Shown: piece after piece, positions 20,193-26,755 of the stretch
Layout of the letters: every line of letters starts with the position of its first letter
Position numbering within the stretch: position 1 is the first letter of the stretch
Assembly: GCA_015057515.1 (NCBI GenBank)
Contig: SVED01000009.1
Span: 1-45,920 of the forward strand
From: Lachnospiraceae bacterium
GTDB lineage: Bacteria; Bacillota; Clostridia; Lachnospirales; Lachnospiraceae
Length of the DNA stretch: 45,920 bases
Direction of reading: 5' to 3'
Made by a program: the position numbers and the translations under genes
The notes under the pieces: generated by a model
What the model was told of the DNA's origin: nothing
The model's database searches: none
What the model saw: only the letters and a program-made list of their open reading frames with translations

Positions 20193-20404
20193 CATGCCCT
20201 CACTTCGCAAGCTCTGCTTGCTCAGTGTGGGGCATTCGCCATATATTTGGACTGAGAGCAACATAACGCACATCTTACCAACTTCGCTTCGCTCGTTGAT
20301 AAGCCGTGCGTTATGCCTTCAAATAGTCAGAAAAATAAAAACAGCCAGTTGAGTACGCAAGCGTCCTCCCCTGACTGTTTTTATTTTCTGACTGCTCTCA
20401 GTCC
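20193..20404. repeat. Branched palindromic element downstream of the split pfl cluster
   Basis: Perfect and near-perfect inverted repeats are nested here. The outer arms GGACTGAGAGCA (20249-20260) and TGCTCTCAGTCC (20393-20404) enclose two adjacent hairpins: 20263-20314 (closing ATAACGCAC/GTGCGTTAT) and 20326-20392 (closing GTCAGAAAA, with CTGTTTTTATTTT opposite AAAATAAAAACAG). A third hairpin at 20193-20235 lies outside. As RNA or cruciform DNA this forms a multi-way junction. It starts 7 bp after the 82-aa gene stop and probably protects or terminates the pfl transcript. It fills the 362-bp gap, together with the promoter of the next gene. Confidence 0.85.
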
Positions 20405-20410
20405 ATTTCC

Positions 20411-20659
20411 TTACATCTTCTGAATTGATTCGTGGAATGTACGTGAGATAACGTCGTTCTGCTGCTCCTCAGTTAACTTGATGAAGTTTACAGCGTATCC
20501 TGAAACACGGATAGTTAACTGTGGGTAGTTCTCTGGATGCTTCTGAGCATCAATGAGAGTGTCTCTGTTGTATACGTTTACGTTAAGGTGGTGTCCGCCT
20601 TTTTCTACGTAACCATCTAACATACTAACTAAGTTATCGATCTGCTGTGTACTAGCCAT
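20411..20659 (-). CDS. Stand-alone glycyl-radical subunit of pyruvate formate-lyase
   Basis: An 82-aa protein that is the PFL C-terminal domain as a separate polypeptide. Residues 24-82 closely follow the end of E. coli [19 protein letters not shown], then [13 protein letters not shown] with the radical glycine at residue 54, and a C-terminal [13 protein letters not shown]. coli has a similar free protein (GrcA/YfiD), but only as a spare for a complete PFL; here the large subunit has no such domain, so this one must be essential for activity. GGAGG is 8 nt upstream of the ATG. It is the third gene of the cluster. Confidence 0.93.
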
Positions 20660-20716
20660 TTTAGTATCCTCCTATAATAATATGTTTCCCTGTTTACAGG
20701 GTATGGAAAAAATTGA

Positions 20717-20923
20717 TTACTGTTCCAAATACTCGTCAATGCCTTCATGAAGTGTTGGTACGCTACAGGCAAGGTCTCCCTTGGCACAATCTGTACAACC
20801 CATAGTGCTTACCTGTTTACCTTCTATGTCAGGGTCAACGGACACATTTACGTGTCCATGACCTTTTGACATCATATCGTCAAGCATTGCAACTATATCA
20901 TCTACATTACTTAAATTATCCAT
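20717..20923 (-). CDS. Small Cys-containing paralogue of the glycyl-radical subunit
   Basis: Function unknown. The 68-aa protein lies between the PFL large subunit (14 bp upstream) and the radical subunit (57 bp downstream). Residues 6-28 (NVDDIVAMLDDMMSKGHGHVNVSV) align with residues 6-28 of the 82-aa protein ([24 protein letters not shown]), so it shares the linker region that docks the radical domain. The radical-loop half is absent. In its place are Cys43, Cys46 and Cys53 (CTDCAKGDLAC), which could bind metal or form disulfides. Ribosome site AAGGA is 8 nt before the ATG. It is a real gene by spacing and codon use, not a remnant. Confidence 0.82.
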   Translation of the reverse strand: MDNLSNVDDIVAMLDDMMSKGHGHVNVSVDPDIEGKQVSTMGCTDCAKGDLACSVPTLHEGIDEYLEQ

Positions 20924-20937
20924 ACTATCAGTCCTTA

Positions 20938-22980
20938 TTATTTGCTAAGGTCGATTTCGATGTCACCAGCGAATACCTGATCTTCCTTACCAAGTGCTCC
21001 AGGAATGATTGAGAATGTATTAGAAATACCATCCTGTGAATCCATGAATGGAAGCTTAGCTACTGATGAAAGTGATGCAAGAGCACCGCTCTTATCTCTA
21101 CCATGAAGTGGGTTTGCACCAGGTGCAAGTGGCTGACCATGCTTTCTACCACATGGAGTATCACCTGTGTTCTTACCATAAGTTACGTTTGAAGTAATTG
21201 TAAGAACTGACATAGTAGGGAATCCGTTTCTGTAAACGTGGTGCTTTCTAATCTTGTTCATGAATGTTGAAACAAGGTTAACTGCAATGCTATCTACTCT
21301 ATCATCGTTGTTACCATACTTAGGGAAATCTCCCTCTGTCTCATAGCTTACTACGATACCCTGCTCATTTCTGATTGGCTTAACCTTTGCATACTTGATA
21401 GCTGAAAGTGAGTCAGCTACAACCGAAAGACCAGCGATACCAGTTGCGAAGTATCTTCTTACGTCTCTATCGTGAAGAGCCATCTGAATTCTCTCGTAAG
21501 CATACTTGTCATGCATATAGTGAATGATGTTAAGGGCTGATACATAAACCTCAGCTAACCACTCCATCATATCATCGTACTTCTCCATAACCTCATCATA
21601 GTCAAGGTACTCTGAAGTAATTGGTCTATACTTAGGACCTACCTGTACACCTGTACACTCATCAACACCACCGTTGATAGCGTAAAGGAGACACTTAGCA
21701 AGGTTAGCTCTAGCTCCGAAGAACTGCATTTCCTTACCAACTCTCATAGAAGATACACAACATGCGATTGCGTAATCGTCACCATGAGTTACTCTCATCA
21801 TATCATCGTTCTCGTACTGGATTGATGATGACTTGATTGACATCTTAGCACAGTACTGCTTGAAGTTGATTGGAAGGTTCTTTGACCAAAGAACTGTTAA
21901 GTTTGGCTCTGGTGCTGCACCTAAATTATCAAGAGTATGAAGATATCTGAATGACATCTTTGTAACAAGTGGTCTACCATCGATACCAACACCTGCAAGT
22001 GACTCAGTTACCCATACTGGATCTCCTGAGAACAACTGGTTGTACTCTGGAGTACGAGCAAACTTAACGATACGAAGCTTCATAATGAAGTGATCAACGA
22101 ACTCCTGAATCTGCTCCTCTGTAAATGTACCGTTTGCTAAGTCTCTCTCTGCATAACAATCAAGGAATGTAGAAGTACGTCCAAGTGACATAGCCGCACC
22201 GTTCTGCTCCTTAACTGCACCAAGGTATCCGAAGTATACTGCCTGCATAGCTTCCTGTACGTTAGTAGCTGGCTTAGAAATATCAATTCCGTAAGCTGCT
22301 GCCATCTGCTTTAACTCACCAAGAGCTCTAATCTGCTCTGAAATCTCTTCTCTTGCTCTGATAACATCATCAGTGTAAACCTTGCCGTATGAATCCTTCT
22401 GCTTCTTCTTGTCTGCAACTAAGTAATCAATACCGTAAAGAGCTACTCTTCTGTAGTCACCGATGATACGTCCACGGCCATATGCATCTGGAAGTCCAGT
22501 AATGATGTGGTTTGAACGGCACTTTCTAATCTCTTCATCATATACATCAAATACACCAGCGTTGTGAGTCTTTCTGTGAGTTGTAAAGAACTCAACTACC
22601 TCTGGGTCTACCTTATATCCATTATCTTCGCAAGCCTTCATAGCCATACGAATACCACCGTAAACGTTCATTCCTCTCTTGAATGGCGCATCAGTCTGAA
22701 CACCAACGATAGTCTCCTTGCTCTTATCAAGGTAACCTGCACCGTGTGAAGTAAGAGTTGAAACAACCTTAGTATCCATATCGAGAACACCGCCTGCTTC
22801 TCTTTCCTTCTTGCTTAAGTCAAGTACCATCTGCCATAAATCCTTAGTGTTCTGTGTAGGGTCAGCTAAGAAAGCGTCATCGCCCTCATATACAGTGTAG
22901 TTCTTCTGGATGAAGTCTCTTAAGTTAACTTCTTCCTGCCACTTGCCGCCTACGAAACCATTCCATGCTGCTGATTCCAT
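20938..22980 (-). CDS. pflB: Pyruvate formate-lyase large subunit lacking the glycyl-radical domain
   Basis: PFL converts pyruvate and CoA to formate and acetyl-CoA. The 680-aa protein carries the N-terminal PFL domain, the catalytic pair Cys407-Cys408 ([10 protein letters not shown]), [17 protein letters not shown] near residue 610 and the [15 protein letters not shown] segment at 656-670. Full PFL (about 750-760 aa) continues from there into the linker and radical loop, but this protein stops 10 residues later with TAA. The missing domain is supplied by the 82-aa gene downstream. No frameshift is visible: the next two genes have their own ribosome sites. GGAGG is 10 nt before the ATG. Confidence 0.95.
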
Positions 22981-23110: not shown

Positions 23111-23203
23111 GTATACATTATAATTTTTTATTGTATACACGTCAACGCATTATCAGCAATTTTTTGTACTTTTTTAAGTACACGGATTGTATACAGTATA
23201 CAA
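23111..23203. promoter_or_regulatory. GTATAC operator-like palindromes around the pfl promoter
   Basis: Four related elements: GTATACA at 23111-23117 touching the -10, TTGTATAC at 23131-23138 inside the spacer, the perfect dyad TTGTATACAGTATACAA at 23187-23203, and TGTACTTTTTTAAGTACA at 23165-23182. The first two would be blocked by RNA polymerase, so a repressor is the simplest reading. The regulator is not identified. The sites are unlike classical Rex or FNR boxes. Confidence 0.65.
23117..23145 (-). promoter_or_regulatory. pfl promoter
   Basis: Minus-strand TTGACG (23140-23145), 17-bp spacer, TATAAT (23117-23122). Predicted start of transcription is near 23110, giving a leader of about 130 nt. 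Confidence 0.82.
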
Positions 23204-23250
23204 TAGTACTGTCATTTGTTTAACCTCGTTATATATTCTTTTTTAATACA

Positions 23251-25778: not shown

Positions 25779-25830
25779 AACTTTGATTTTCGTTATTTTC
25801 AAACATAATTATTATAGGAGGAATATTATA

Positions 25831-26046
25831 ATGGCAAAGCAGGTTAACAAATCAATGCTTATTCATGAGATTATAGAAGTTGATCCTGGCAATGCTGCTA
25901 TTCTTATGGCATCAGGAATGCACTGCGTTGGATGTCCATCGGCAGCTATGGAAACATTAGAAGAAGCTTGTATGGTACATGGTATGGATGTTGAAGAAGT
26001 TTGTACATCCATAAATGAGTACCTTGCTAAAAAAGAGGCAAACTAA
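25831..26046 (+). CDS. DUF1858 / redox-disulfide domain protein
   Basis: A 71-aa protein of the DUF1858 type, also described as a redox-disulfide domain associated with hybrid-cluster proteins. It has the family pattern of a short helix (MLIHEIIEVDPGNAAILMASG), then the CVGCPSA disulfide motif (Cys about 34 and 37) and EEACMVHGMDVEEV. GGAGG is 9 nt before this ATG; a longer upstream frame lacks a site. It is 19 bp before the BI-1 gene and probably co-transcribed. The role is unknown; a thiol-disulfide switch in anaerobic metabolism is plausible. Confidence 0.85.
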   Translation: MAKQVNKSMLIHEIIEVDPGNAAILMASGMHCVGCPSAAMETLEEACMVHGMDVEEVCTSINEYLAKKEAN

Positions 26047-26065
26047 TTTAAAGGGGGTATTTTTT

Positions 26066-26755
26066 ATGTCAGACAGACAGGAGAGATATGCCGAAAGGCA
26101 ACGTCTTCAATATGGAGAGCAGGAGGTTTCTCCACAAACCTATAATTTGATTTTAGGTGGGGTTTTAACTTACGGTTTCCTTGTAAATTGTTTTATGGTT
26201 GCATTTTGTTTCGATGCAGCTATTAACTTCGTGTCAAGTGGACCACTGTTCTACATCGCATACTTTGCAATGGTTATTATTGGTACACTTATGGTTAACG
26301 GTTCTAAGAACCCAGCAGTCAGCTTCCTTGGATATAACCTTATCGTTATTCCATTAGGACTTATTTTATCAGTTGTACTCAATGCATTTTCTATTGCCGG
26401 CATGCAGACAACTATTATTACAGCTTTTGCTATTACAGCAATTGTTACTATCGCAATGATGTTCCTTGGTGCTGCATTCCCACACTTCTTCTTAAGTCTC
26501 GGAAGAACATTGGGCATCACACTCTTAATCACTATCGTTGTTGAGATTGTTATGATGTTCTTAGGTGCAAACTTAGGCATTATTGATTATATCGTAGTTC
26601 TTATTTTCTGTGGCTACATCGGATATGACTGGGCAAGAGCTAACGCATGTGCTAAGACAGTTGACAACGCTGTTGATATGGCCGCTGAACTCTATGTGGA
26701 CATCATCAACTTATTCATCAGAATCTTAAGCATCTTAGCAAGATCTAACGACTAA
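26066..26755 (+). CDS. Bax inhibitor-1 / YetJ-family membrane protein
   Basis: A 229-aa integral membrane protein with about seven hydrophobic segments from residue 30 onward. The C-terminus YDWARANACAKTVDNAVDMA followed by ELYVDIINLFIRIL matches the signature of the BI-1/TMBIM family, whose bacterial member YetJ is a pH-sensitive calcium leak channel. Ribosome site AAGGGGG is 8 nt upstream of the ATG. It follows the DUF1858 gene and ends at a strong terminator. Calcium transport is inferred from the family only. Confidence 0.85.
   Translation: MSDRQERYAERQRLQYGEQEVSPQTYNLILGGVLTYGFLVNCFMVAFCFDAAINFVSSGPLFYIAYFAMVIIGTLMVNGSKNPAVSFLGYNLIVIPLGLILSVVLNAFSIAGMQTTIITAFAITAIVTIAMMFLGAAFPHFFLSLGRTLGITLLITIVVEIVMMFLGANLGIIDYIVVLIFCGYIGYDWARANACAKTVDNAVDMAAELYVDIINLFIRILSILARSND

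Follow-up and report, generated by a model that had tools for sequence, protein, structure and literature searches.

A pyruvate formate-lyase (PFL) that is naturally divided among separate genes is encoded in the window, by which we mean the whole 45,920-nucleotide stretch of Lachnospiraceae DNA analysed here. PFL is the textbook single-chain radical enzyme of fermentation. Here we consider it likely, judging from sequence, that a working holoenzyme is assembled from separate chains, namely a core, the free glycyl radical domain GrcA3 and an element carrying a pair of cysteines (the Cys-pair element), and we infer that this split enzyme works. The free radical domain is not in itself new, because GrcA3 is already a named NCBIfam model. 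The new part is a 68-residue protein encoded between core and GrcA3, called here the middle protein, which on comparative evidence is a conserved third component, overlooked by an earlier sequence-only reading of this DNA.

All the genes concerned are on the minus strand. The core (22980-20938, 680 aa) has the barrel and the catalytic Cys407-Cys408, seen in the sequence at codons 21757..21762, and lacks the radical loop. The middle gene (20923-20717, 68 aa) encodes an N-terminal half resembling the radical domain, DDIVAMLD..GHGHVNV, together with a cysteine motif, CTDCAKGDLACSVPTLHEGID; codons 43-53 (20765..20797) include Cys43, Cys46 and Cys53. GrcA3 (20659-20411, 82 aa) has the radical Gly54, equivalent to E. 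coli Gly734, in the sequence RVSGY (20498..20500). One reading frame without a Pfam match separates it from PflA, the radical SAM activating enzyme (19079-18312, 255 aa). With a promoter-like site before them and a stable hairpin after them, the core, middle and GrcA3 genes look like one operon. The promoter-like site, TTGACG-17-TATAAT (23117..23145, minus strand), has 11 of 12 consensus bases and lies upstream of the core, in a window where 11 such sites were counted against 8.2 in shuffled sequence, which is no clear excess. The hairpin, with an A/U-rich base, lies 3' of GrcA3 (20331..20388, minus strand; z -7.85, with 0 of 200 shuffles equally stable); it is a possible terminator of the operon and is absent from the terminator scan list. 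Between the middle gene and GrcA3, hairpin folding is no better than in shuffles (z -0.58). A perfect palindrome, ATTGTATACTGTATACAAT, at 23186-23204, upstream of the core and near promoter-like sites, is a possible operator. Elsewhere in the window, a DUF1858 protein (25783-26046) adjoins a Bax1-I family membrane protein (26057-26755).

The core scores 1108.3 bits against the PFL model TIGR01255 (cut-off 994.2), covering only profile positions 1-665 of 744. It has no C-terminal glycyl radical domain on the same chain, and the radical loop is encoded by the separate GrcA3 gene, whose 82-residue product contains the RVSGY loop and scores 164 bits against NF038360 (GrcA3; cut-off 158). PflA scores 292.3 bits against TIGR02493 (cut-off 231.75). 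Core residues 4-670 align with residues 9-681 of E. coli PFL, and residues 8-78 of the 82-residue protein align with 683-758, which puts the cut near E. coli residue 690. The sequence-only reading had proposed a naturally split PFL with its radical domain on a separate gene, and had thought a sequencing error joining the frames unlikely. The coordinates and family scores bear the split out, and so does the genus: among its 37 genomes there are 26 TIGR01255 matches over the cut-off, of which 25, the window's own included, are split alike and stop at profile position 665-670, the remaining one (genome G551) being full length. Because 25 of 26 matches share this layout, a frameshift artefact is excluded.

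The core is under purifying selection (pN/pS 0.03-0.21 in 10 comparisons), and the catalytic Cys pair is kept in 101/101 split cores and in all 27 full-length cores compared. Split cores also carry marker residues that are rare in the 27 full-length proteins, these being Cys117 (94/97, window numbering) and His399, Ser411 and Cys430 (100/101 each). For the columns listed, they are present too in all five of the re-fused proteins described below.

The free domain had also been read as apparently obligatory, in the expectation that there is no second full-length PFL, and the genome counts agree with this. The window's own genome (117 contigs, 85% complete) has a single protein matching PF02901, the core, and hence, at that level of completeness, no second full-length PFL detectable by PF02901. 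It has three PF01228 (Gly_radical) matches, two of them at the locus and the third being the anaerobic ribonucleotide reductase NrdD. Beyond it, we hand-picked 52 split-bearing genomes of the same family, all listed as at least 95% complete, with others of that kind omitted. In 49 of them there is no further TIGR01255 match at 1e-60, while three (G417, G405 and G373) have a full-length PFL besides the split one; TIGR01255 alone was sought, so that other PFL-like glycyl radical enzymes could supply formate. In all eight genomes reached via middle-protein loci, including that of Eubacterium ruminantium ATCC 17233, the sole TIGR01255 match over the cut-off is the split one; one of the eight, G958, has an additional, different PFL-like glycyl radical enzyme. 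Within the genus, a middle protein is absent at E 0.1 from G551, whose full-length PFL falls outside the split clade, and G544, assembled as one contig, has neither a TIGR01255 PFL nor a middle protein. The spare part GrcA/YfiD implies a complete PFL to repair, and none was found in the window's own genome or in 49 of the 52 others.

The split was not borne out as a singular novelty, the layout being spread across genera of the same family and GrcA3 being an existing NCBIfam family. Of 250 genomes of the same family, 83 have GrcA3 above its cut-off; for two of the 83 (G383 and G362) the domain listed is fused to the core. In a sample of 398 genomes from the phylum, few of them from this family, two have GrcA3 above the cut-off, and both belong to this genus. 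Apart from these, almost every strong match listed from that sample is the C-terminal end of a frame about 740-880 residues long; G757, G588 and G761 have strong matches on frames of 110-252 residues. One split locus (L307) belongs to another family of the same order.

A FastTree phylogeny of 133 cores places 101 split and five full-length proteins in a clade of 106 (support 0.81), and a quick IQ-TREE run on 63 rows gives 99 for the split-plus-re-fused side, with three changes needed. This history is readable as one split and two re-fusions, the radical domain having apparently been rejoined to the core at least twice. The five full-length PFLs that lie inside this clade, L110 and L158-L161, look like products of re-fusion. 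In L110 the linker that joins the core to the re-fused radical domain still contains Cys residues. The Cys pair is lacking in L158-L161, and therefore seems dispensable once the radical domain is covalently attached.

Twelve loci (L087, L103, L106, L113, L130, L136, L138, L141, L150, L154, L157 and L305) hold an additional free GrcA3 gene in a stretch without a PFL core; each lies in a genome that has a split operon as well. They could be spare radical parts. The sequence-only reading suggested that the cell may gain from swapping an oxygen-damaged radical part, and these 12 loci hint at such an advantage. As to neighbouring genes, one at L326 is a rubrerythrin, and a MecA-family gene adjoins the pfl operon in 'Ca. 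Galacturonibacter soehngenii' (L315, 13542-14351) and in Eubacterium ruminantium (L316, 4470-5357).

The N-terminal half of the middle protein aligns with GrcA3 in hhalign over 36 columns (probability 97.2%, E 2.9e-11) and, on this alignment, shares ancestry with the radical domain. Its C-terminal half has a cysteine-pair motif in place of the radical loop. In an alignment of 26 members (A1), invariant positions include Cys46, Ala52, Cys53 and Pro56 in this motif, and Asp15, Gly23 and His24 in the first half. Two middle proteins outside this alignment, from L096 and L045/L285, break off just past the first pair of Cys, so that the rest of the motif is missing; all of the 49 middle proteins in which cysteines were counted, a subset, have 2-4. 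The middle protein has no Pfam match and only a sub-threshold NCBIfam match, to GrcA3; as single sequences, 5 of the 26 members match Pfam Gly_radical weakly (best E 0.01). The middle-protein profile itself matches the N-terminal halves of GrcA3, and gave nothing credible in a profile search of the PDB.

The middle protein is found in 30 of the 37 genomes of the genus at E of about 1e-18 or better (counting G557, at 1.3e-18), and is under purifying selection (pN/pS 0.13-0.38 in 11 comparisons). Relatives turned up in 529 stretches of the scanned collection, and 80 of these stretches were retained. The order core, middle gene, GrcA3 on one strand holds at 67/67 loci checked, the window apart. 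AlphaFold on core, middle protein and GrcA3 as a single chain, for which eight rows of the alignment had the middle protein misaligned onto GrcA3, gave a mean pLDDT of only 44.3; a separate prediction for the middle protein was weak as well (58.3).

It is worth adding that there is a second family of small proteins whose N-terminal half is related to the middle protein, and which end in YHHGRCD-x-x-SP-x-x-x-G. They occur at L333 (2396-2605), L334 (2412-2657), L335 (2055-2303), L336 (2355-2573), L337 (2487-2762), L340 (2068-2286) and L341 (1973-2197). The four that were scanned have no NCBIfam or clear Pfam match, no common neighbour was seen, and the DNA pattern of the family has no exact match in the window's own genome.

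It is striking that the cysteines appear to be supplied either in trans, by the middle protein, or in cis, by a tail on the core, and never both at one locus. Among 101 deduplicated split loci, 67 have the middle gene adjacent, and none of these 67 has a core with tail Cys. The middle gene is not adjacent at the other 34, and 32 of these have at least two Cys in a short core tail, with a spacing of 0-6 and often followed by I/V-P-N/T-L; one such tail (L115, genome G380) is recognised by the Cys half of the middle-protein profile (7.9e-6). In the remaining two (L114 in G296 and L304 in G415), a middle protein with the motif is encoded elsewhere in the genome. The 101 exclude cores shorter than 300 residues and the 12 free-GrcA3 loci without a core in the stretch. 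The collection was entered via GrcA3 or the core for 58 of the 67 middle-gene loci, the other nine having been reached via the middle protein or being the window itself. The 34 loci whose middle gene is not adjacent were initially classed by Cys pattern (A 31, N 3), after which L100 was moved from N to the tail type. Distant middle genes in genomes of the tail type were judged from the best matches listed, which are GrcA3 N-terminal halves or the genomes' own tails.

Fisher's test of middle gene against tail Cys gives 2.7e-24, related loci being treated as independent. On the tree, where the tail trait was set from the pattern labels and the letters of the 67 were checked separately, the number of changes required is at least 12 for the middle gene and 10 for the tail. 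Well-supported branches yield five independent pairs, of which about four are opposite, one shows no difference and none goes against the rule (p 0.125, not significant). Because the loci are related and five independent pairs remain, the formal phylogenetic support is modest. The suggestion that the 68-residue gene is an unrelated bystander was discarded on the grounds of conservation, selection, gene order and this cysteine rule. The sequence-only reading thus stands as to a natural split and an apparently obligatory free domain, finds no support as to singular novelty, and missed that this gene encodes a third, conserved part.

On the basis of these observations, we hypothesise that the core would supply the barrel and the catalytic cysteine pair, that GrcA3 would contribute both the absent barrel strand and the glycine to be converted to a radical by PflA, and that the Cys-pair element would come from the middle protein here and from the C-terminal tail of the core in other genera. 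In E. coli, free YfiD can give a radical to a damaged PFL core, in which segment 696-733 is the proposed recognition element; with a core cut after residue 695, YfiD binding is undetectable and activation is 32-fold less, the enzyme being fully active once activated (PMC8683613). Oxygen-cut E. coli PFL is reported to be clipped at 690-695, near that deliberate truncation (PMC8683613). In vivo, Gly734Ala PFL is reported to make formate thanks to GrcA (PMC12338860). The natural core described here is cut just before the position of segment 696-733.

We propose that the middle protein would dock on the core through its radical-domain-like half, that the Cys-pair element would stand in for the recognition segment removed by the split, and that the Cys pair may guard or reset the redox state of the core or its active-site cysteines in periods when the radical domain is missing or being replaced. 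A Cys pair covalently attached to the core would need no dock, in keeping with the tail type. Tail-type loci lack the radical-domain-like half, so docking can be only part of the function. The role that we favour for the middle protein thus combines docking with a redox element replacing the lost recognition segment. The Cys-pair element probably acts on how the core-GrcA3 complex is assembled, activated or protected; a redox dithiol is a tentative suggestion for its chemistry. More doubtful is an extended version, a PFL of exchangeable parts, in which a duplicated, loop-less radical domain has become a Cys-pair subunit that binds the core and redox-gates or seals the active site during replacement of oxygen-damaged GrcA3, the pair being supplied in cis or in trans, in a lineage that re-fused at least two times.

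Several other explanations have to be weighed. GrcA3 might be no more than a common spare part, with the core a truncated PFL in decay and the cell independent of the pair. The NCBIfam name, autonomous glycyl radical cofactor, points this way, as do the three of 52 split-bearing genomes that also have a full-length PFL; this is nevertheless highly improbable in the face of the purifying selection on the core, the catalytic Cys pair kept in every split core, and the 49 genomes without another PFL match.

Three further possibilities concern the middle protein or tail, and all seem unlikely to us. It could be a metal or Fe-S accessory subunit of the BSS-beta or HPAD-gamma type, tuning radical transfer from glycine to cysteine, since it too is a small Cys-bearing partner of a glycyl radical enzyme. 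Two invariant Cys in A1 and a tail spacing of 0-6 are unlike a fixed four-ligand site, however, and no family or PDB match is credible; we would not expect this explanation to hold. A radical-transfer role is reported for BSS-beta (PMC12590467), and the Cys-pair element could conceivably have such a role, or an Fe-S one. The homology of the N-terminal half with the strand-bearing half of GrcA3 suggests another possibility, that the middle protein plugs the radical-domain groove and keeps the core inert until displaced by GrcA3, or that it fills the second site of the dimer. We are inclined to doubt this, since tail-type cores lack that half entirely and the structure predictions, at the low pLDDT values given above, offer no placement for the middle protein. 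Finally, the Cys pair could be a swinging redox arm. In class I ribonucleotide reductase, a C-terminal Cys pair re-reduces the active-site cysteines, and the C-terminal position, two conserved Cys, variable spacing and supply in cis or in trans would all suit an arm of this kind. PFL turnover is not known to require an external reductant, however, which makes such an arm improbable as well. Our preference remains for docking together with a redox element.

If this is right, a large clade of bacteria from rumen and gut relies for its formate formation on two small proteins, of which annotation treats one, GrcA3, as a spare part and leaves the other, the middle protein, unnamed. Separate pieces could let many gut and rumen bacteria replace the part that oxygen destroys. 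Such a clade would let one study, as an experiment made by nature, the way a glycyl radical domain locates its core, enters it and comes off again, and would bear on the question whether anaerobes handle oxygen by swapping a damaged part. It would also make the middle protein a specific candidate accessory subunit of PFL.

Literature searches that included few preprints showed, among the titles and abstracts listed, nothing on a split PFL and no description of a small cysteine-bearing middle protein. A 2025 paper states that most glycyl radical enzymes, PFL included, are single-polypeptide homodimers, and that further accessory subunits may await annotation (PMC12590467). Transcript support for a split PFL in 'Ca. 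Galacturonibacter soehngenii' (PMC7000372) was considered and dropped, the published gene probably being another one. In that paper the PFL and PFOR tags are close together (RS03160 and RS03200). The genome has a full-length PFL-like glycyl radical enzyme (L327, 15852-18383) about 9 kb from PFOR on contig C4, while its split operon is on contig C7, away from PFOR. Because the tags are close and PFOR is near L327, the highly transcribed PFL is probably the L327 gene.

A comparison with known systems places these observations. PDB entry 38lb, a formate acetyltransferase of 739 residues, falls inside the split clade (inner clades 0.94) and has 8 of 9 marker residues, and so looks like a core of this clade; its depositors may be aware of the split. 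No 38lb chain is among the PDB sequences matched by GrcA3 or by the middle-protein profile. Entry 38la has 2 of 9 marker residues and is not placed in the split clade. Foldseek, run with the low-confidence model against a library to 8 April 2026, has neither entry among the best 50 of 271 matches.

The core resembles PflB (TIGR01255) in scoring over the family cut-off, in its catalytic Cys pair and in its PflA partner, and differs in having its radical domain on another chain and in stopping near E. coli residue 690. BSS-beta/gamma and HPAD-gamma are likewise small Cys-containing partners of a glycyl radical enzyme (PMC12590467); they bind [4Fe-4S] clusters, whereas the middle protein appears to be a relative of the radical domain, with no credible PDB match. 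GrcA/YfiD (TIGR04365) and GrcA3 (NF038360) are both free glycyl radical domains. Against YfiD, the alignment of the 82-residue protein starts at residue 68, and most of the disordered 60-residue N terminus of YfiD is missing from it. The task of YfiD is to mend a PFL that is complete but has been cut by oxygen (PMC8683613), whereas here no complete PFL to repair was found. A parallel in cut point is tPFL (E. coli residues 1-695), studied in vitro with YfiD, where the nearly equal cut is artificial (PMC8683613). tPFL lacks the proposed recognition element and activates poorly, whereas the natural split is accompanied by a Cys-pair element.
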